The position numbers and the translations under genes are program-made. Below are positions 37,556-49,100 of a stretch of DNA of 64,000 bases, one piece after another. Position 1 is the first letter of the stretch. Each line of letters starts with the position of its first letter. Below the pieces are notes generated by a model. That model was not told the DNA's origin, did not search any database, and saw only the letters and a program-made list of their open reading frames with translations. The stretch is from positions 1 to 64,000 of the forward strand of contig JAJDAT010000040.1 of NCBI GenBank assembly GCA_029261715.1. The letters run 5' to 3'. This DNA is from Nitrospinia bacterium. Its GTDB lineage: Bacteria; Nitrospinota; Nitrospinia; Nitrospinales; JAJDAT01.

Positions 37556-39085
37556 TTAAAATGGAATCGATGAAAGAGCCAAATGCATGAAACCTGACGG
37601 GAAAATACCAATCATAAGTATGGCTGCCGAGCTGAAGGCAATCAATGCTCCCATACCTGTTGTGATCTCAATGGAATCCTCTGATTCTGAGCTTTCCCGA
37701 AAATACATTAGAACAATGATTCTCAAATAAAAATAAACAGAAATCATACTAGCCACTACAGCGAGAAGCGCCAAAAGCTCATATCCTTCTTTAATGGCGG
37801 ATATGAACAGGTAAAACTTTGCAAAAAATCCTGCGGTAGGCGGAAAACCTGCAAGGGAAGCCATAAATAAAGCCATCGCAAAAGCAAGGTAAGGATTTCG
37901 CTTCGAAAGGCCTTTGAACCGATTGATTGAATTCGCTTCTTCACCTTCGCCTTCTAAAATATACACAATGGCAAAAGCCCCCAGATTCATGCACAAATAT
38001 ATTCCAAGGTAGAAGATGACGCTAGCCATGCCTTCTTGATTATTGGCTACTATACCAATCAACAGATAACCAGCATGCGCAATACCAGAATAAGCCAGCA
38101 TGCGTTTAACATTAGTTTGGAAGATAGCTGCAGTGTTTCCAACCAACATAGTGATGACAGAGATTCCAAATAGGAAAGGCATCCAAACGCTTTGTAACTC
38201 TGGCAATGCTCCATAAAAAATTCGACCTATAAAGGCAAATGCAGCGGCTTTGGTTGCTACCGACATAAATCCAGTAATAGGAGTCGGCGAGCCTTGATAA
38301 ACGTCAGGGGTCCAGGAGTGAAATGGAACTAATGAAACTTTAAAGGCCAATCCTGCAAATAATAAGGCAATTCCCATATAGACCAATAAGTTACTGCTAT
38401 AGGGATTATTATGAATTTCTTCGGCAAGTTTATGAATTTCGGTCGTGCCAGTACCGGCATAAATCAAAGCCATTCCGTAAATAAGTATTGCGGAAGCAAA
38501 AGCGCCAGTTAAAAAATATTTAATCGCAGACTCTTGAGAGGTTTTGCACTCCCAGCTTAATTTTGAATAGTCCCCAGGACCTTCCGAGCCCGTTCCATGT
38601 TTTGCCGAAAAACCACAAAGGATATAGAGCGCGATCGAAAATAGTTCCAGCGAAACAAAAGCGGCTATCATGGTGCCCGATTTGGCCAAAAACATCATTC
38701 CGACAACAGCTAATAATACTAACGCAAAATATTCCGGTTTATTTTGATGATCTGATTTAGGAAAGCGAAAAGTAGCAAAAATAGCGAAAAGCGACATCAA
38801 TAGAAAAATAATATTGAAAGTCTGAGCAAACCGGTCATTTATCAAAGCGGAACTAAAAATGGCAGGGTTTTCATTACTAAGAACTGAAGGAACCTGTCCC
38901 CACAATATTAAGGAAACAATGAGAGAAATCCCAACTCCAATTATGGACGCTCTAGACAAAAAGGCATTGGAATCGAAATCCTTTTTTAGCCCTAAAATCA
39001 ATAGACTAAAAGCCGTCGCTAAAAGGACCAATTCGGGGGTCAAAACCCACCAGTTCATATCGGCAAAATTAATGTTGGCTGTCAT
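37556..39085 (-). CDS. nuoN: NADH-quinone oxidoreductase subunit N
   Basis: 509 residues with ~14 membrane helices, one of the three antiporter-like proton-pumping subunits of complex I. Recognisable parts: FVSLELFSIALYIL, ESAIKYFLTGAFASAILIYGMALIY, FKVSLVPFHSWTPDVYQGSPTP (broken-helix lysine region) and KRMLAYSGIAHAGYLL. It is last in the usual nuo order, but here nuoM and the others are not on the right: the giant CHAT gene is read divergently. So nuoN is detached from the operon or the operon is split. Confidence 0.95.
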   Translation of the reverse strand: MTANINFADMNWWVLTPELVLLATAFSLLILGLKKDFDSNAFLSRASIIGVGISLIVSLILWGQVPSVLSNENPAIFSSALINDRFAQTFNIIFLLMSLFAIFATFRFPKSDHQNKPEYFALVLLAVVGMMFLAKSGTMIAAFVSLELFSIALYILCGFSAKHGTGSEGPGDYSKLSWECKTSQESAIKYFLTGAFASAILIYGMALIYAGTGTTEIHKLAEEIHNNPYSSNLLVYMGIALLFAGLAFKVSLVPFHSWTPDVYQGSPTPITGFMSVATKAAAFAFIGRIFYGALPELQSVWMPFLFGISVITMLVGNTAAIFQTNVKRMLAYSGIAHAGYLLIGIVANNQEGMASVIFYLGIYLCMNLGAFAIVYILEGEGEEANSINRFKGLSKRNPYLAFAMALFMASLAGFPPTAGFFAKFYLFISAIKEGYELLALLAVVASMISVYFYLRIIVLMYFRESSESEDSIEITTGMGALIAFSSAAILMIGIFPSGFMHLALSSIPF

Positions 39086-39311: not shown

Positions 39312-42300
39312 ATGAAGGGATTTAAAACAAAAAAAATATTATTAGTCGTTTTTTTCATCCTTCTTCCGGTAATTTTTTATCCCGGATGGGTTATCGCTAA
39401 TAATATCAATGATAAAGCGATACAAATAGTCTCCAACCCAGGAGAAGACTTTGCCGCCGCTGTTTCGCGCGATGAACAAACCTTGGTTTATGTGTCGGAA
39501 AAATCTGGCAATTTAGATCTCTGGTTAAAAAAATTGGAACCAGCTCCCCCGCCTGATCGACAATTGACTTTCCATAACGCAGGAGATAATTCTCCTGCTA
39601 TTAGTCCCAACGGCGAATGGCTTGCATTTATTTCTAACCGGTCAGATCCAAAAGGGGATCTTTATATCCTTCCTTTAAAATTTGCGGCCCCTCAAAAGGG
39701 AATTGACAACGCTCGCAGGCTAACCGATGGCAAAACCCAAGACAAAAACCCAACCTGGTCGGCTGATGGTAAGTTTATTTATTTCTCCTCTAAAAGCTCT
39801 GGATCATTTGAAACTCAAATCAAAAAAATCGATATCGATACAAAAATTGAAATTGGAATAGATAAAGTTAAAGGACTCAATCCATCTGTCTCGCACGACG
39901 GTCGCTATTTGGCGTTTGTTTCTCGGAAAAGAAACACTAAACCTTCGATTTGGGTCAAAGATTTAAAAACAAACTCTTTGGTTCAAATTACTAAAGGAAC
40001 AGACATCGACGTTTCGCCAAATTGGTCACCCGATGGAAAAGAAATATACTTTGCGCGTTACCGTGACGATACAAACCGCGATAGCGCCGTAACGATTGAA
40101 GATAGACCTAATATATGGTCGGCCTCCTTCCCACCTTCAAAGTTACCTGTTCAATTAACTGATAGCGCTGCATACGACTTATTTCCTCAAGCTTCCAAAA
40201 ATAGTTTGTACATTACTTCCGATCGGAAAAAAGACATAGATATTTGGAAAATTCCACAAAAGGGATTGATACCTTTTCCCAACGATTATGGACAAGCTCT
40301 TCAAATTACGGCAGACCTTTGTCCAAAAACAGACCAAACCTCATATTCTTGTTTAATGGCTTACAACAACCTCATCGCCTTATTTCCTGACGAGGGAGGA
40401 AGTACGCGAAGTAACTATCTAATGGGATTAGGTTATTTGAGTTTGGGTCATGTTGATTATGCTGAAAAAATATTCTCTCGAATTGCCAAAAATAAACAAA
40501 AGAACCCCTTATACAGAGGATTGGCCGAGGTTGAGAACCTTATACTTCAAACAGAAAAATTCAAAACCAAAGGCAGCTCTGCGTACCTGAAAAAAGCAAC
40601 TCAAACCCTAGCCGATTTAAACAACATAAAAATTAAATACAAAGACGAGCGTAGAGTGAACGCTCGGGTCCTTTTAGAAAAAGGAAGAATTCTTTTCAAA
40701 ACTGACGAATTGGATAAAGCCCTTAAATTTTACAAAGAAACTATTAAGAATTATCCGGAACAAAGAACTGTTGCCGCCGAAGCTGCGTTTCTACAAAACG
40801 AGGTGTATCAAACTCTAGGCGACAATCGAAAAGTAATAAACTCATTTATTCAAGTTGTCAGGGATTTTTACGATGTCGAATACTGGACAGACAAAGCGAC
40901 CAGAGAAATTTTTGCTCTTCATGAAGGCCAACCTACTTTTGAAAAAAAAGTCTCTAAGTTGCGGAACCTTTCAATTCAGTACGAAAAATTGCCTCGCCTT
41001 GCCGGCGCTATTCAAAATCGCGTTGGCGAACTCTATAAACAAGCAAACGAAAATCTATTGGCTAAGGAAGCCTACCGAGCCACTGTAGACCGATTTCCAG
41101 ATTCCATTAAAAGTAAAAACGCTGCGTTGTTTGCATTAGCCAATATTTATGCAGAAGAAGAAAATTTTGAACAAAGTTTAAGAGTGTATGAACAAATTGC
41201 CGACGACTCTAAGGATCTAAAAGAGGCGGTTAAAAATTCACGAAAAGGTTATATCCGAAAGTCTATAGCTAAAGGAAAATGGGAACTAAAAGTTGGAGAG
41301 GTAAAACTTGCCGTAAAAACTTTTTTGAATCTGATTCGTTTTTCTCCAGAAACAATCGAAGGACATCGAGGGTTTGTACAAGCAAAAGCCGCTTTGAAGG
41401 GAATAGACGAAACGATCTCGTTTTACAAAAACCGATTGAAAGAAAACCCCGGTTCTGCTCCGGATAGATACGCTCTTGGTCTAACTTATACGTATCTTAA
41501 AAAACCAGATTTAGATACGGCAGAGAAAGAAATTCGCGAAGCTATTCGAACCGACTCTCAACAAATCTATTATCACCAAACTCTGGGCTATGTTTACGAG
41601 CAAATGGAGTCAATTCTAAAACGATCCGATTATTTGGAAAGAGCTTTGCAAGAATACCAAACAGCTCTTTCCCTTGCCGATCCAACCGAAACACCAAGAA
41701 ACGAAGCCGATTTATTATTAAATTTGGGAAATGGAAATTTCCTGCTGAATAATTTTTCTGCGGCATACCGCTATTACAAAAAACGCGAAGAAACGGGATT
41801 AGACTTTTTAAACGAATCGCGAGAAGCAATTTATTTTTCCAGATATGGAGAAAGCGCTTTTAAATCTGGAGAGCCAAAAGAAGCGATAAAAACTCTAAAA
41901 AAATCTTTAAAAATATTTTCGAAGAAAAAAGATCAAACCAGAATGGCTGAGTTGAACGATCGCATAGCCTTAGCATACCAAGATGTAGAAAATTACTCTG
42001 AAGCGGTAAACCATTTCGCTGAAGCAATGGAAATTAATCGAGCTTCAGGAAATACTTCTTCTCTTTCACGTTCTCTTCGTAATATCGCAAACAACCTCTT
42101 TTGGCTAAATAAAAAAGAAAAAACTAAAAAGTCTGGACAATTAACGCAAGCTCTAAATAATTATTTTGAAGCGATAGAAAAAATCGAAAAATTTGGAGTT
42201 ATCCAAAAAAAGAAAAGTCAATCAGGTCTATTGAACATTCAGATCGAAACGCCTCTAGATCAAAACGCTTCAGCTGCCGCTTCTGGCTTCGATACAGTAG

Positions 42301-45300
42301 GAGAACAAAAATTAATTTTTCATTACGTAGGAAAAATATACGGAGATTTCAAAGAATACGGGCGCGCCACAGAATATTTCGAGAAAAAATTGGCCCTGAT
42401 TCCCGATAAATTGGATATTGAAAAAAATGTACCCGTTTTATTAGAAAAAGCTTTGCTGCAAAACCAAATCGGCAATTTCAACTATCTTAAAGGAGATTAC
42501 GAAGCCGCCGGTCGCTATTTCAAAAACTCGTATCAATTAAGCAAATCTTTAAAAAATAGACATGGAACGGCTGTAAACGCGGCTAATCTAGGTAAATTGC
42601 TGTTGGCTAAATTAGAAAATCGACCAACGGCTCAACCTTCTCAAGAAATAGAAAATACGATATCGTTACTCACAGAAACCTCTAAATGGCTCACCGAATT
42701 CAAGGAGTATTCAAACCCCGAGTATCAAGCCTATCTGCAAAATTATATTGGAATTTTTAAATACTACAAAACTTTTCAATTATCTAGTACGACAAAGACG
42801 ACAAATGAAAAAGACGACAACCTGTCTTTCCTCTCAAGTCTTAACGATTTAAAGAATGACGCCGACAACCTTAGTTTAGCGGCTCAAAACTTTAAAGAGG
42901 CCATTAAAAATCTTGAAGCGGCAAAAGACATTCCACAAAAAAAAGAAATGCTTGCGGCTCTGAAGCAAAATTTAAAATTATCCAACAACTTTGAAACTTC
43001 CGAAAAAAAAGCGAATTCCAATACTGTTCCTACTGACCCTGCATTTTCAATACGATGGCAGCATCGCTACTTAAAAGCCTTACGGGCAGCATCCTCGAAA
43101 GAAAAATTAAATTTACTTTTAGAATCTGAAAAACTCTTTTCAAAGATTCCATATGGATTTTCTCCTCTTAAAGACGATGGAATAACCATGCTGGCCCAGC
43201 TTTATCGGGATATCACGGCGGCCTACTTTGAAGATAAGCGATTTGCTGAAGCATTATTTTTCTCTGAAAAAGGCAGTCGACAATTGGCCATCGCCAACCA
43301 ACAAGTTTTTCCAATAAAATTTTCCGGCGAAAATCGGCAGATGTATTGGGACGAATTAATGACATTTTCTGACCGCTTAAGAAAAGCGGTTGAAGGGACT
43401 TCTGAAGAAGATGCGAAATCCATTTTAGAGGAACAAGAAGAATTTTTAACTCTCGTTAAAGAAGACGACAAAGAACTAGCCGCGCTCTATAGCCCCTATA
43501 TTCCAGATATAGACGAAATTCGTAGCGCAATGAAAAAAGAAGGGGCTATTCTAAAATATGAATGGATTGGCGATAAAATATTTATCTGGGTTATAAACTC
43601 AAAAATTATAAGAGCTGGGGCAGTCACCGCCACTTCCGAATTGACCAGGGTTATTTCACAATATGCAGCCAACCCAAAAAACTATTCCCGCTCAGATATT
43701 GAACTACTAAGCAAGGCGTTAACTCAGCCTATCAAAGATTTTGTCAAAAACTCAAAAGCTTTATACATACTGGCAAATGGACCTCTAGAGTATTTACCGT
43801 GGCCAGCTATGAAAATAAACGCTAAGCCCATAGTTGAAACGATTCCAATAACCTATATATCTTCGTTTTCTCATTTAATATTTTCTAAAGAAAAACGAAA
43901 TTTATACAACGCCCGCTTACTAAATATAGGAAATTCATTCGAAACAATGGAAGGTTTGGAAAGTAGTTTTTCTACTATTAAAAATCTAAACAGTCGAACT
44001 AAAGAAATTGACGCCTTCTCTAAATTACGAAGAAATTTTGGATTAATAAATATTGAAAATAGAACTGTTTTAAATGGACGAAAACTATGGGACTCATATA
44101 TTGGAATTTCTGATAACCCTAGAAGATTTGACCGATGGCGACCTGAAGAGCTTTTTGAAGAATCGTTATCTGGTCATTTAATTGCCCTTCAAAATATTCA
44201 ATCAGATTACGAACGAGGGAACAATTTATCGCCTTCTGTTTTTTTAACAGAAGCTTTAACATTTGCCGGATTTCCGGGAATACTACTAAATTGGACTCAA
44301 AACGGATTAATTATCCAAAAAAGTTTATTCAAATCCTTTCTAAAAAAAGTCCGTAATGGAAACCCTTCTGAAGCTTTACGTTTGGCTCAATTAGAAACCG
44401 CAAAAAAATTTCCAGATTCCTTAGATTGGGCGGGATATCGATTTTATGGTTTTCCTGGAATGGAAGAAGACGAAAAAAAGGAATTTGCAAAAACTAATTT
44501 TGATACAAACGTTCAAAAAGGTCTTCAAGCTTTTAAACAAAAAGAGTGGGATGGCTCAATCGGGTATTTTGAAAAAGCCCTCGCTCTTATTTCATTTTTA
44601 GAAAATAAAGACTCAGAAAATCAGATTCGCAAAACTCTCGCTCTCGCCGCTTACAATCAAGGCGATTATCAAAAAGCCATTCAATACCAAAAAGGATTAG
44701 TCAAAATGATGGAGCTTCGGGAAGACCCCGAGCTTTTAGCTGAATCGATCTATTTTTTAGGAATATTACATTCCCGAGCCGAAAACTACGGAGAAGCCGT
44801 TAAGCTTTTACAAAAATCTTTAAACATTTATAAGGAAAACGAAATCCTTGATAAATTAGCGGAAAGCTATAGCGCTTTAGGTATTATCGAAGAAAACGCA
44901 TTGGATTACGACAAAGCCCTTCAGGCTTTCAGTTCATCTTTAAAGATCAGTGAAGAGATTGGCGAAGATTTAAATCGAGGCCGCGAATTAAGAAGAATTG
45001 GGCGAATTTTTTATCTTAGATTGAGTCGCTACAATCAAGCAAAAGCGTATTTCCAACAAGCTTACGATCTATTTAAGGAAATCGACCAATTAGACCAAGT
45101 AGTCGAATCTCTTTTGGAATTGGGTTTAGTTGCCGAAAAACAAGGCGACTTTGACGTTGCCTTAAATCGCTATCAGGAAGCTCAAAATCTAGCAAAAGAA
45201 ATAGATATGAAACCAGGCTTATCTAAAGCGTTTTTATATCAAGCAAATAGTCATTGGTTTCAGGGAAATTATCAGAAAGCGTTTAAGTTCCAGAGAAAAG

Positions 45301-47330
45301 CTTTGGCTATTGCAGAAGAGATTACCGATAAACGTCAAAAAACATTTGTATATAACACGCTGGGTTTAATTTATTGGACTCTTAACAACTCTTCGCAAGC
45401 CCTGGGAAATCTAAATAAAAGTCTTAAACTTGCTGAGGAAATCGAATCGCCATTAGATATTGCGACGGCATATAACAATATTGGTTTGGTGTATCGCAAA
45501 GACAAAAAATATGAAAAATCGATAGAATTTTTTCAAAAAGCGCTAAAAAAAGACGAAGAATTAAAATCAAAATGGGGTCAGGGATATACTCATAGAAATT
45601 TAGGTATGAGTTATCTGCGTTTGGAGCAACTAGATTCCGCATCAACCCATATTCAAAAAGCCGTTGCCTTAAGCCGTGAGATTGGTAATCAAACCAACCT
45701 GGTTAAGTCTATGTTGGAAATGGGAAACCTTGCCATGAAACGGAAAAACTGTTCTAAAGCTATATCCGCTTTCAAAGAAACAGAAGCATTGGCCGGAAAA
45801 CTAAAAATTTCTGAAGTTCATTGGAGGGCTCTTAGAGGACAAGGAAAATGCCTTGCTATGAATGGAAAATTAAACTCAGCAACTGAAGCTTACAAAAAAG
45901 CCACCGAAATCGTAGAAGATATGCGAGCGGCTATCAAAATTGAAGAATTCCAAAATGGCTTTCTAACCGATAAACAAGACGTATTTAAAGAACTCGTTTT
46001 ACTTCTTCTCGACCAAAACAAAACTGCGGAAGCTTTTTCCTATGCGGAGAAGGCGAAATCTAGAAGTTTTATTGATTTACTGGGAAACCAAAAAGTAAGC
46101 CTCAAAAACGATGTAAGCCAAAAACTTTACGATTCGCTAACAAAGCAAAAAAACCAAATCAGAAAAATAGAAGAAACTTTAGGGAAAACAGAAGAGGAAG
46201 ATAAAAGAAACCAACTGCTAAAAGACTTAGTAGCCGCTAGGAATAACTATCAAGAAATTTTGATAAAGGTTAAAGAACAAAGCCCTCAGTTGTCGAGCTT
46301 TGTTACGGTAGAAACTCTCAACATTTCAGAAATTCAAAAGTTATTAGAACCTAAAGTAGCTCTAATAGAATATTTAGCGACTCCAAAGGAATTAGTTATT
46401 TGGGTTGTTTCTCAAAATAGTTTACAAGTCACAAGAGTTCCCATAGAAGAAAAAGAATTAGAGAAGCTAGTAAATGATTATCGAAGTCGGATGCAAAGCT
46501 TAGCTCCATTGGAAGAGCAAACAGGAAAACTTTACGACATCACTATTAAACCTATCGAACCATGGATCGAAACCCAAAAAACACTCGGGATTATACCTAA
46601 CGGAGTTCTCCATTATATTTCTTTTTCTTCATTGAGAGGACCTAATGGTTACTTGTTTGAAAAACATCCCCTATTTTATGCTCCAAGCGCATCCGTTTTA
46701 AAATTTACCTTTGGAAGAAAATACGAGAAAAAATCTGGCCCGGTCAAAGTACTCGCTTTAGGCAACCCGGATTTAGGCAGCTTAAATTATGATTTACCGC
46801 TGGCGGAATTGGAAGCCAACGCCATTAAATGGGATTTTCCAAAAATTGACGTGTTAACCCGAGAAAAAGCCACAGAAAGTTGGCTCAAAAAACACATTAG
46901 CGAATATCAAATTATCCATATCGCATCGCATGGAGAATTCGATCCCATCAATCCTTTGTTTTCTTCTTTAAAGCTAACTCGCGATCAATCAGAAGATGGA
47001 AACTTTGAAGTTAATGAAGTGTTCTCTCTCGATATTAAAGCCGACTTAGTTACTTTAAGCGCCTGTCAAACTGGTCTTGGAAAAATTGAAGGGGGCGACG
47101 AATTAATGGGTCTTAATCGAGCGTTCTTTTATGCCGGAACTCACGCTCTTATTTCGTCGCTGTGGCGGGTAAGTGATATTTCTACAGCTATTTTAATCAA
47201 ACATTTCTATCGAAACTACGCAACCAACTTAAAAGCTGAAAGTTTAAGAAAAGCTCAATTGTTGGTTAAACAATCTTACCCACATCCAGCTTATTGGTCG
47301 GCTTTCAGCTTAACTGGGGACTATCGGTAA
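39312..47330 (+). CDS. giant exported propeller-TPR-CHAT-TPR-CHAT protein
   Basis: 2672 residues. A hydrophobic signal at ~8-30, then PD40/TolB-type propeller repeats (~35-330; PTWSADGKFIYFSS, PNWSPDGKEIYFARY). First TPR array ~335-1330. First CHAT-like domain ~1400-1725: the fold's landmarks are there (ILKYEWIGDKIFIWVI; GPLEYLPWPAM; EALRLAQLETAKKFP) but the HxxSHG and SACxTG motifs are absent. Second TPR array ~1750-2260, then a complete CHAT domain ~2330-2672 with His2540 (IASHGEF) and Cys2585 (LSACQTGLG), the caspase-type dyad, and the end YWSAFSLTGDYR. CHAT proteases cut a partner when their TPR part senses a signal. Location outside the cytoplasm and the target are inference. A GGAG ribosome site lies rather far (~12 nt) from the ATG. 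Read divergently from nuoN. Confidence 0.9.
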   Translation: MKGFKTKKILLVVFFILLPVIFYPGWVIANNINDKAIQIVSNPGEDFAAAVSRDEQTLVYVSEKSGNLDLWLKKLEPAPPPDRQLTFHNAGDNSPAISPNGEWLAFISNRSDPKGDLYILPLKFAAPQKGIDNARRLTDGKTQDKNPTWSADGKFIYFSSKSSGSFETQIKKIDIDTKIEIGIDKVKGLNPSVSHDGRYLAFVSRKRNTKPSIWVKDLKTNSLVQITKGTDIDVSPNWSPDGKEIYFARYRDDTNRDSAVTIEDRPNIWSASFPPSKLPVQLTDSAAYDLFPQASKNSLYITSDRKKDIDIWKIPQKGLIPFPNDYGQALQITADLCPKTDQTSYSCLMAYNNLIALFPDEGGSTRSNYLMGLGYLSLGHVDYAEKIFSRIAKNKQKNPLYRGLAEVENLILQTEKFKTKGSSAYLKKATQTLADLNNIKIKYKDERRVNARVLLEKGRILFKTDELDKALKFYKETIKNYPEQRTVAAEAAFLQNEVYQTLGDNRKVINSFIQVVRDFYDVEYWTDKATREIFALHEGQPTFEKKVSKLRNLSIQYEKLPRLAGAIQNRVGELYKQANENLLAKEAYRATVDRFPDSIKSKNAALFALANIYAEEENFEQSLRVYEQIADDSKDLKEAVKNSRKGYIRKSIAKGKWELKVGEVKLAVKTFLNLIRFSPETIEGHRGFVQAKAALKGIDETISFYKNRLKENPGSAPDRYALGLTYTYLKKPDLDTAEKEIREAIRTDSQQIYYHQTLGYVYEQMESILKRSDYLERALQEYQTALSLADPTETPRNEADLLLNLGNGNFLLNNFSAAYRYYKKREETGLDFLNESREAIYFSRYGESAFKSGEPKEAIKTLKKSLKIFSKKKDQTRMAELNDRIALAYQDVENYSEAVNHFAEAMEINRASGNTSSLSRSLRNIANNLFWLNKKEKTKKSGQLTQALNNYFEAIEKIEKFGVIQKKKSQSGLLNIQIETPLDQNASAAASGFDTVGEQKLIFHYVGKIYGDFKEYGRATEYFEKKLALIPDKLDIEKNVPVLLEKALLQNQIGNFNYLKGDYEAAGRYFKNSYQLSKSLKNRHGTAVNAANLGKLLLAKLENRPTAQPSQEIENTISLLTETSKWLTEFKEYSNPEYQAYLQNYIGIFKYYKTFQLSSTTKTTNEKDDNLSFLSSLNDLKNDADNLSLAAQNFKEAIKNLEAAKDIPQKKEMLAALKQNLKLSNNFETSEKKANSNTVPTDPAFSIRWQHRYLKALRAASSKEKLNLLLESEKLFSKIPYGFSPLKDDGITMLAQLYRDITAAYFEDKRFAEALFFSEKGSRQLAIANQQVFPIKFSGENRQMYWDELMTFSDRLRKAVEGTSEEDAKSILEEQEEFLTLVKEDDKELAALYSPYIPDIDEIRSAMKKEGAILKYEWIGDKIFIWVINSKIIRAGAVTATSELTRVISQYAANPKNYSRSDIELLSKALTQPIKDFVKNSKALYILANGPLEYLPWPAMKINAKPIVETIPITYISSFSHLIFSKEKRNLYNARLLNIGNSFETMEGLESSFSTIKNLNSRTKEIDAFSKLRRNFGLINIENRTVLNGRKLWDSYIGISDNPRRFDRWRPEELFEESLSGHLIALQNIQSDYERGNNLSPSVFLTEALTFAGFPGILLNWTQNGLIIQKSLFKSFLKKVRNGNPSEALRLAQLETAKKFPDSLDWAGYRFYGFPGMEEDEKKEFAKTNFDTNVQKGLQAFKQKEWDGSIGYFEKALALISFLENKDSENQIRKTLALAAYNQGDYQKAIQYQKGLVKMMELREDPELLAESIYFLGILHSRAENYGEAVKLLQKSLNIYKENEILDKLAESYSALGIIEENALDYDKALQAFSSSLKISEEIGEDLNRGRELRRIGRIFYLRLSRYNQAKAYFQQAYDLFKEIDQLDQVVESLLELGLVAEKQGDFDVALNRYQEAQNLAKEIDMKPGLSKAFLYQANSHWFQGNYQKAFKFQRKALAIAEEITDKRQKTFVYNTLGLIYWTLNNSSQALGNLNKSLKLAEEIESPLDIATAYNNIGLVYRKDKKYEKSIEFFQKALKKDEELKSKWGQGYTHRNLGMSYLRLEQLDSASTHIQKAVALSREIGNQTNLVKSMLEMGNLAMKRKNCSKAISAFKETEALAGKLKISEVHWRALRGQGKCLAMNGKLNSATEAYKKATEIVEDMRAAIKIEEFQNGFLTDKQDVFKELVLLLLDQNKTAEAFSYAEKAKSRSFIDLLGNQKVSLKNDVSQKLYDSLTKQKNQIRKIEETLGKTEEEDKRNQLLKDLVAARNNYQEILIKVKEQSPQLSSFVTVETLNISEIQKLLEPKVALIEYLATPKELVIWVVSQNSLQVTRVPIEEKELEKLVNDYRSRMQSLAPLEEQTGKLYDITIKPIEPWIETQKTLGIIPNGVLHYISFSSLRGPNGYLFEKHPLFYAPSASVLKFTFGRKYEKKSGPVKVLALGNPDLGSLNYDLPLAELEANAIKWDFPKIDVLTREKATESWLKKHISEYQIIHIASHGEFDPINPLFSSLKLTRDQSEDGNFEVNEVFSLDIKADLVTLSACQTGLGKIEGGDELMGLNRAFFYAGTHALISSLWRVSDISTAILIKHFYRNYATNLKAESLRKAQLLVKQSYPHPAYWSAFSLTGDYR

Positions 47331-47985
47331 CTTCTCCTGGAAAAACATCGCCACCTTCAAGAATTACCCATTTTTCGGAGGTGTCACCTAAAGTTAAATC
47401 CAATCGATCATTCTGCCTAATTAATTTAATCGCTTGGTCAGGTAATCTAAAGCGAATGGGTTCGGATAAATCCTCCCCAGATACATGAACAAAATCGCGT
47501 CTAGTCTTATCTACTTCCAAAACGCAATGAAGAGCATTTATAATATTTGGAGGATCTTCTAATATTTTTGCCGCCGCTTCGTCAATAAAACTACTTAACT
47601 GACGGCACCTTTCCCTTTGACCCATAAGATCTTTCACAGATTTTTGAAAATCAATTTTGGATAACCCATGAGAAATTTCCCGTTTATCCATCCATTTAAG
47701 AAGAGAAAATATTTCAAATAATATTTCATTTGTTTCGTATGATTCTTTTCCTTGCTTAAAGGGGATATAACAAACTACAAAGCGACTTAAACAATCATAT
47801 TTTATGTTTTCAGGCCGTGCACATACTAATGGATTGCCAGAAATTTCTTCGGCATCTAATCCAGCTTCCACCAGGCAAGAATGAAATAAAGATAAACCAA
47901 AACCTAGAACAGGGGTCGAAGAATCGGGATCTTCAGGAACATTAGTTTCCTGGGCATATTGTTTTAATAACTCATAAACTTCCAT
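47305..47985 (-). CDS. hypothetical protein convergent with the CHAT gene
   Basis: 226 residues, acidic N-terminus, cysteines at several points (HSCLVEAG, LVCARPE, YDCLSRFVVCYIPF). The middle is helical and the end beta-rich (LDLTLGDTSEKWVILEGGDVFPGEV). No signal or membrane segment. Its last 26 bp overlap the 3' end of the giant CHAT gene tail to tail. It starts 20 bp after the aminotransferase gene at 48006, so those two are likely one transcript. No family recognised. A functional link to the CHAT protein is only a possibility. Confidence 0.65.
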   Translation of the reverse strand: MEVYELLKQYAQETNVPEDPDSSTPVLGFGLSLFHSCLVEAGLDAEEISGNPLVCARPENIKYDCLSRFVVCYIPFKQGKESYETNEILFEIFSLLKWMDKREISHGLSKIDFQKSVKDLMGQRERCRQLSSFIDEAAAKILEDPPNIINALHCVLEVDKTRRDFVHVSGEDLSEPIRFRLPDQAIKLIRQNDRLDLTLGDTSEKWVILEGGDVFPGEVTDSPQLS

Positions 47986-48005: not shown

Positions 48006-49100
48006 TTATTTAGCTTGAATAGAAAGACAATTTCCCAGTTCTGTCAAAAGCTCTTGAAATTCTTCTTGCCGGATATCCCCAATATTTGCAATTCGAAATA
48101 TAGTTTTACTCAAGTTACCTTGGCCAGCATAAATTACAAAGCCTCTTTCTTTCAAATCATCGTGTAATTTTGTATAAGTTACCCCGTTAGGTAACTTTAG
48201 AGAAGTTAAGGTGTTGGAATAATTTTCAAGCGGCAATAAGAATTCCAAATTCAAACTCTGAAAACCTTGTCTTAAAAAATTTGCAGCTTTACCATATCTC
48301 CTAACTCTACCAGCCACAGTTTCATCCTTCAATTCTTCTAAGGCTTCATCTAAAGCATAATGGACTTGTATAGCGGGAGTAAACAAAGTATTTCCTTTAT
48401 CCTGAGCTTTAACGTGAGCGGGTAAATCAAAATAAAGGGACCTCGGAGAGATTTTTTCAATTCGAGGTAAATCGTCCTTTTTCATGAGGACGAAGGAGAC
48501 TCCCGGAAAACCTTGAACGCATTTATTTGCCGTTCCAACACATATTTCTGGTTGCCAAAGACTAAAGTCTAGTTCGTCGCCGCCTAGAGAGCTGATACAA
48601 TCGACCAACAGGACTCTTTCATGCCGATGGACAATTTCCGCAATAGCTCCTAGAGGATTTAACAACCCCGTTGTCGTTTCATGATGGACGACCATGACAA
48701 CTTCAATTTTTGGATCATTTTTTAAGGCGTTATCAATTTCATCCAGTTGAGGTAAATCACCCCAAGTATATTCAAGAACTTTTGTTTCCAAACCATAGCA
48801 CTGCGCTATCTTAGCGATTCGTTCGCCATAAATACCATTATTTATAACGAGAGCTTTTCTATCAGAACTAACGCTTGCCGAAACCGCCATTTCCAATGCA
48901 GCTGTTCCAGAGCCAGAAACTAGAGCGGAAGTATAATTTTTTTCAATATCAAAAACCTTTACGAGTTTTTCACGAATAGAAGCTATCAAATCGGTGCATT
49001 CTTTTTCGCGATGACACAAGTCTCCTCTTAGCAGAGCGGATTCTACTCGCTTTGTTACGTTCACAGGTCCAGGGTTTAATAAAACGACTCTTTTTTGCAT
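48006..49100 (-). CDS. PLP aminotransferase, 2-aminoethylphosphonate transaminase-like
   Basis: 364 residues, fold type I, class V. LLNPGPVNVT, DLCHREKE, SGSGTAALE, VVHHETTTGLLNP and GTANKCVQGFPG are close to the PhnW/PntC transaminase pattern. K193 would hold the pyridoxal phosphate and D167 (VDCISS) the ring nitrogen. PhnW-type enzymes interconvert 2-aminoethylphosphonate and phosphonoacetaldehyde; related enzymes are serine/alanine-glyoxylate transaminases, so the substrate is not certain. The LicC/PntC-like cytidylyltransferase and CDP-alcohol enzyme at 15-16 kb make a phosphonate-headgroup pathway thinkable. Confidence 0.8.
   Translation of the reverse strand: MQKRVVLLNPGPVNVTKRVESALLRGDLCHREKECTDLIASIREKLVKVFDIEKNYTSALVSGSGTAALEMAVSASVSSDRKALVINNGIYGERIAKIAQCYGLETKVLEYTWGDLPQLDEIDNALKNDPKIEVVMVVHHETTTGLLNPLGAIAEIVHRHERVLLVDCISSLGGDELDFSLWQPEICVGTANKCVQGFPGVSFVLMKKDDLPRIEKISPRSLYFDLPAHVKAQDKGNTLFTPAIQVHYALDEALEELKDETVAGRVRRYGKAANFLRQGFQSLNLEFLLPLENYSNTLTSLKLPNGVTYTKLHDDLKERGFVIYAGQGNLSKTIFRIANIGDIRQEEFQELLTELGNCLSIQAK

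Follow-up and report, generated by a model that had tools for sequence, protein, structure and literature searches.

The best-described CHAT proteases are cytoplasmic and act in immunity or cell death. Csx29, the cytoplasmic partner of Cas7-11 in type III-E CRISPR, joins a TPR solenoid to a single CHAT module in which a pseudo-caspase part (CHAT1) precedes an active caspase part (CHAT2), resembling separase (PMC10028731). Upon target binding, the TPR region shifts the catalytic residues into place, and the assembled Craspase, whose Csx29 is encoded with Cas7-11 and Csx30, cleaves a sigma-factor inhibitor (PMC10028731). Separase similarly combines a helical-repeat region with one caspase-like protease module, and is a nuclear/cytoplasmic protein regulated by securin. 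DdvA (PDB 8rot, 8rw5), a protein of about 990 aa called a transmembrane anti-sigma factor, also combines TPR and CHAT; its CHAT probably lies outside the cytoplasm, and we know of no propeller or double CHAT in it. A further point of comparison is a lipid-transport system of the bacterial envelope. In E. coli, the AsmA-like proteins YhdP, TamB and YdbH are required for outer-membrane lipid homeostasis, with ydbH sitting in a ydbH-ynbE-ydbL locus (PMC8593681), and YnbE acts with YdbH in lipid transport (PMC11784454).

The window analysed here, a stretch of 64,000 nucleotides from a Nitrospinia bacterium (contig JAJDAT010000040.1), carries a giant gene at 39312..47330 (+), a single 2,672-aa ORF with an ATG start and zero internal stops. 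Pfam, alignment and orthologues give the layout PD40 propeller, TPR, dead CHAT (CHAT-1), TPR and live CHAT (CHAT-2), confirming the domain order proposed in a preliminary description made from the sequence alone. PD40 is matched in five stretches (best at residues 83-119; whole-protein E 7.9e-33), which together with a partial NCBIfam match to a TolB propeller recovers the PD40/TolB-like beta-propeller of that description at about residues 33-330 (39408..40301, +). TPRs are numerous along the protein, and the Pfam TPR families outline a first array at about residues 331-1330 (40302..43301, +) and a second at residues 1740-2300 (44529..46211, +), the latter also appearing as a confident helical repeat in a model of residues 1473-2672. 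CHAT (PF12770) is found twice, at residues 2405-2670 with 202 bits (whole-protein E 1.2e-66) and at residues 1464-1713 with 35 bits (E 1.4e-8 in a scan of these residues by themselves), both above the curated cut-off of 24. Compared with each other, the two modules share 20% identity with a BLAST E of 3e-15.

Residues 1-29 (39312..39398, +) resemble a signal peptide, with a K-rich start (MKGFKTKK) and a hydrophobic stretch followed by VIA|NN. Hydropathy over 19 residues exceeds 1.6 here and nowhere else in the protein, and a basic n-region, hydrophobic core and small-residue site are common to complete orthologues and most distant homologues. Hydropathy and motif thus support the signal-like N-terminus and the location outside the cytoplasm that had been suggested for this protein, and we predict that it is exported by Sec. 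Directly after the propeller, Cys337 and Cys347 (40320..40352, +) form a possible disulfide; they are invariant, at 30/30 and 31/31, among the order members whose sequence covers these positions, and the remaining invariant cysteine in the order is the catalytic Cys2585 only, a pattern that fits an oxidising compartment. As a general feature of the family the disulfide was rejected, since the pair is confined to the order and absent in other phyla.

CHAT-2 (Pfam 2405-2670; 46524..47321, +) has intact catalytic residues. His2540 (HIASHGEF; 46929..46931, +) and Cys2585 (SACQTG; 47064..47066, +), placed exactly by the preliminary description, are invariant in the order and kept in 58/59 second CHATs overall, the exception being L107. 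The His-Cys spacing is 45 residues, versus 43 in Csx29, and a profile of CHAT-2 matches TPR-CHAT in the PDB weakly (E 0.015). From the intact dyad, CHAT-2 is predicted to be a working caspase-like protease.

CHAT-1 (residues 1395-1735; 43494..44516, +) presents a different picture. At the places of the catalytic His and Cys, alignment puts Arg1584 (44061..44063, +) and Ile1629 (44196..44198, +). Searching the PDB by sequence, with single sequences, gave no useful match for CHAT-1. An AlphaFold2 model of residues 1331-1760 built with 32 homologues reached a pLDDT of 89.5 and a pTM of 0.90, and its top Foldseek matches in the PDB were TPR-CHAT/Csx29 (E 1.9e-12) and then human separase (E 1.3e-10), with DdvA and SAVED-CHAT also matched. 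The model, these matches and the missing dyad together identify the first module as a real CHAT fold that lacks the catalytic pair. The preliminary description had called this module catalytically dead and suggested structure prediction as a check, and both the fold and the loss are borne out: in an alignment across phyla, both catalytic residues occur together in none of about 56 first CHATs (three rows that seem to have both, L111, L040 and L192, are single or second CHATs). Judged from sequence and model, CHAT-1 is a conserved pseudo-protease in which the fold is kept and both catalytic residues are gone. The residues of the dead pocket vary freely among homologues. The fold of CHAT-1 has been retained, its pocket and most of its sequence have not, and this suits a role in scaffolding or docking better than that of a conserved inhibitor. 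The CHAT-1 model also matches large axonemal central pair proteins (PDB 7n6g_1N, E 3.6e-7; 9ijj, E 4.9e-6), which suggests that CHAT-like folds may occur in proteins of eukaryotic cilia.

The gene is present in 37/64 genomes of the window's order, and the named public records that contain it are Nitrospinota, mostly Nitrospina/Nitrospinaceae. Order members on complete contigs are about 2,560-2,790 aa long and keep the domain order, with CHAT-1 always without the dyad and CHAT-2 always with it. Mean identity to orthologues is highest for CHAT-2 (74%) and falls through TPR-2 (62%), the propeller (46%), TPR-1 (45%) and CHAT-1 (36%) to the stretch before CHAT-1 (29%). Profile searches found long homologues in five further phyla (those of genomes G196, G180, G268, G098 and G120), so that the same domain order, whose search elsewhere had been proposed with the original observation, is now known from many genomes within and beyond the order. 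In the phylum of G120, 76/82 genomes have a match, many with frames of 2,500-2,900 aa and two CHATs. In four of the five further phyla a dead CHAT-1 can be recognised; in the phylum of G268, as in loci L041 and L189, the region is too diverged to call. In a maximum-likelihood tree, a single branch (SH-aLRT 90) sets off 57 CHAT-1 rows from the CHAT-2 rows, a split that takes 1 change versus 39 when shuffled, and the two halves show similar organism groupings. Such a split is expected from one old duplication. A single origin of CHAT-1 is likely rather than proven, because long branches may pull dead copies together. On sequence evidence, the dead-plus-live layout is old and inherited in several phyla, and no quirk of one genome. 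Within the tree, the CHAT-1 of the window has an end branch of 1.32, longer than those of its relatives in the order, which suggests that it diverged faster than they did.

Three homologues depart from this layout. L107 (G180:C165) is full-length and has lost the dyad in both CHATs. L110 (G120:C160) and L193 (G600:C41) are complete at 1815 and 1831 aa, end directly after the dead CHAT, and adjoin a DUF1318 lipoprotein gene, so that a first half does occur on its own, with no protease half behind it. Together, these homologues suggest that protease activity is not always needed.

In the window, the giant gene has no operon partner, as both neighbours lie on the opposite strand. The divergent neighbour encodes a NuoN-like NADH-quinone oxidoreductase subunit (37556..39085, -) and holds the same position in 24 flank sets, the window included. 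On the other side, a convergent 226-aa gene with no family match in Pfam (47305..47985, -) overlaps the giant's 3′ end by 26 bases. Past it lie a PhnW-like aminotransferase gene (48006..49100, -), which flank comparison marks as conserved synteny and not part of the system, and DUF4159 and GATase1-like genes. Gene order here is largely retained across Nitrospinales, making the locus an ordinary conserved chromosomal one. In eleven Nitrospina-type loci (L089, L090, L091, L093, L094, L095, L097, L099, L100, L102 and L105) a same-strand gene of about 411 aa, not found in the window, stands upstream of the giant and ends mostly 48-106 bp before it; a fragment of this gene has no Pfam match.

Outside Nitrospinota, the gene neighbourhood is of another kind. 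Recurrent neighbours were identified by all-against-all BLAST comparison of flanking genes, and in three other phyla the giant gene lies downstream of a same-strand AsmA-like gene, in most cases accompanied by one for a DUF1318 lipoprotein; the usual order is AsmA-like, DUF1318, giant. The giant is accompanied in 27 loci by the DUF1318 gene, whose product is lipoprotein-like and about 190 aa long; the two share a strand in 27/27 and lie within 600 bp of each other in 25. Upstream of the giant, 19 loci have the AsmA-like gene, which shares its strand in 19/19. Some of these rows also went into the profiles used for counting; the clusters themselves come from BLAST. In the phylum of G098, DUF1318 (L187, L189) and an M48 peptidase gene are found downstream of the giant, the latter also in L041, and in L190, from the phylum of G268, an AsmA-like gene is directly upstream. 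These clusters recall the E. coli YdbH-YnbE-YdbL system of AsmA-like bridge, lipoprotein and DUF1318 protein, and the DUF1318 search matches E. coli among the control genomes, in what we take to be YdbL. They differ in that the E. coli locus is without a giant CHAT protein, and the DUF1318 protein of the genomes studied here, unlike the E. coli system, has a lipobox-like start of its own.

In Nitrospinota, the giant, AsmA-like and DUF1318 genes are unlinked. The window's genome encodes an AsmA-like protein of 1,469 aa on contig C18 (L214:5677-10086, -), which is kin to AsmA by a profile built in this analysis (E 7.1e-48) and has no match in a Pfam scan, and a DUF1318 lipoprotein on contig C20 (C20:25543-26124). 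About 3 kb from the latter is a gene whose peptidase-like product carries an HExxH motif (M48-like; L201:12115-12909, -), and an M48 gene is part of the giant's own cluster in another phylum. The unlinked genes nevertheless co-occur. Across the 64 genomes of the order, the giant and the AsmA-like gene are both present in 34, with the giant only in 3, AsmA only in 1 and neither in 26 (Fisher p 1.5e-13, ignoring kinship); the corresponding counts for the giant and DUF1318 are 31/6/4/23. Restricting the comparison to the 28 genomes at least 90% complete gives 19/0/1/8 for AsmA-like and 18/1/1/8 for DUF1318. Among these good genomes, joint absences fall in three genera (g7, g2 and g12), so that the p-values overstate independence.

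As a control we used the second TPR-CHAT protein of the window's genome (G000:C40:111640-114813; L072:3641-6817), an exported protein of 1058 aa with a lipobox-like start, TPRs and one CHAT with intact dyad, and no propeller. Clear orthologues, at about 50% identity, are found in just two other genomes of the order (G012 and G015), showing that not every accessory gene follows the giant. A search with this lipoprotein found no CHAT in giant-lacking genomes at least 90% complete. Its gene is followed directly by that of a CHASE2-adenylate/guanylate cyclase (L072:6821-8881), and the ORF upstream of it (L072:305-3457) combines a P-loop motif, GGPGSGKSS, with pentapeptide-like repeats.

Its genomic ties to AsmA-like and DUF1318 genes shift the likely role of the giant to envelope lipid homeostasis. 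There are several possible explanations for how it acts. The one we favor, with its chances of being right and wrong in rough balance, is that the giant is an exported caspase-like envelope protease, gated by its TPRs and tied to an AsmA-type lipid bridge, with the dead CHAT as scaffold. The likeness of its TPR-CHAT layout to Csx29 suggests that the protease is latent until a partner binds upstream and switches it. The giant would act in the periplasm with a YdbH/YhdP-like bridge between inner and outer membrane, where the propeller and first TPR array may have the bridge, the lipoprotein or an outer-membrane component as their binding partner. The solenoid would be held together by the dead CHAT, which would add a docking surface, and the second TPR array would relay the state of the partner to the live CHAT. 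As with the TPR domain of Csx29, this could move the catalytic Cys loop into place, upon which the live CHAT would specifically cleave an envelope protein; the number or activity of bridges, or else a stress signal, would in this way track the status of lipid transport. Every step beyond export, the intact dyad and the genetic tie to AsmA/DUF1318 is one that we infer. Counting against the lipid-bridge reading are the lack of linkage in Nitrospinota, the clustering of losses in few genera, and the existence of CHAT proteins that are exported or lipid-anchored yet differ in function, such as the TPR-CHAT lipoprotein beside the CHASE2-cyclase.

The preliminary description had likened the two modules to caspase-8/cFLIP-like regulation. 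In a switch of this kind, CHAT-1 would dock on CHAT-2 and directly inhibit or activate it, with no special tie to lipid transport. A universal dead-first, live-second order is in keeping with such a switch, as is the pairing of pseudo-caspase and active caspase in Csx29 (PMC10028731), but CHAT-1 and the stretch before it evolve fast relative to CHAT-2, and the pocket residues vary in a manner unlike that of a strict conserved interface. Moreover, a whole TPR array separates the modules, which are about 700-800 residues apart, and the AlphaFold2 model of the dead-TPR-live segment (residues 1473-2672; pLDDT 73.9, pTM 0.60, with a poor CHAT-2 part) does not place the CHATs relative to each other. 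Given the unconserved pocket and a model without usable geometry, direct regulation of CHAT-2 by CHAT-1 is a possibility that we consider unlikely. The giant could instead be a periplasmic scaffold that keeps an envelope complex together by binding through its propeller, its TPRs and the folds of both CHATs, with proteolysis secondary or lost in some lineages. Its size and repeat content would suit this role, and L107, L110 and L193, which count against a protease role in all homologues, would be accounted for; yet the near-complete retention of the CHAT-2 dyad, in what is the most conserved part of the protein, is as expected for an enzyme and makes such a scaffold quite unlikely.

Two further readings borrow the function of known CHAT proteins. 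In one, the live CHAT would cut an anti-sigma or similar membrane regulator upon envelope damage reported by the propeller, and AsmA/DUF1318 would merely be co-regulated. Cleavage of a sigma-factor inhibitor by Craspase (PMC10028731) offers a precedent, and DdvA is what the 1473-2672 model matches most closely in the PDB; against this, a scan of the window's neighbours found no sigma or anti-sigma gene, and we regard such a signaller as improbable. In the other, the giant would be a cell-death or anti-phage protease, like Craspase or the gasdermin-cutting CHAT proteases, relocated outside the cytoplasm. Such proteases exist and the fold matches, but the protein is exported from a locus whose synteny with NuoN-like, PhnW-like and DUF4159 genes is order-wide and chromosomal, with no defence island. 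There is no cas-like or gasdermin family among the neighbours scanned, and PADLOC returns a TPR match and one chance-level match. The defence reading is unsupported by these data, and we consider it very improbable.

Csx29 already offers a case of a pseudo-caspase next to an active caspase (PMC10028731), so the arrangement is less new than the preliminary description supposed; what stands as unusual is a second complete dead module some 700-800 residues off, past its own TPR array. Neither this module nor the propeller and signal peptide is found in Csx29; separase has no propeller either, and it and DdvA differ further as described above. In the literature, of which coverage was incomplete, we found no account of any of the following: a complete dead CHAT ahead of its live counterpart, a fusion of CHAT with a TolB-type propeller, or a tie between CHAT and AsmA/DUF1318. 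The novelty lies in the gene cluster and co-occurrence with AsmA-like and DUF1318 genes. It is possible, although we put the chance somewhat below even, that this reflects a widespread envelope system in which an exported caspase/separase-like protease, with a dead copy of its own module as scaffold, monitors or controls an AsmA-type bridge and its DUF1318 lipoprotein, amounting to regulated proteolysis of the outer-membrane lipid supply.

An exported double-CHAT protein with an old dead module thus resides on ordinary chromosomes of several phyla and travels with the AsmA/DUF1318 lipid-transport families. Live and dead copies on one chain, along with homologues in which the live copy is lost, provide a natural series for pseudo-protease function. 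If the link to AsmA/DUF1318 holds, the giant would be a candidate regulator of phospholipid delivery to the outer membrane.
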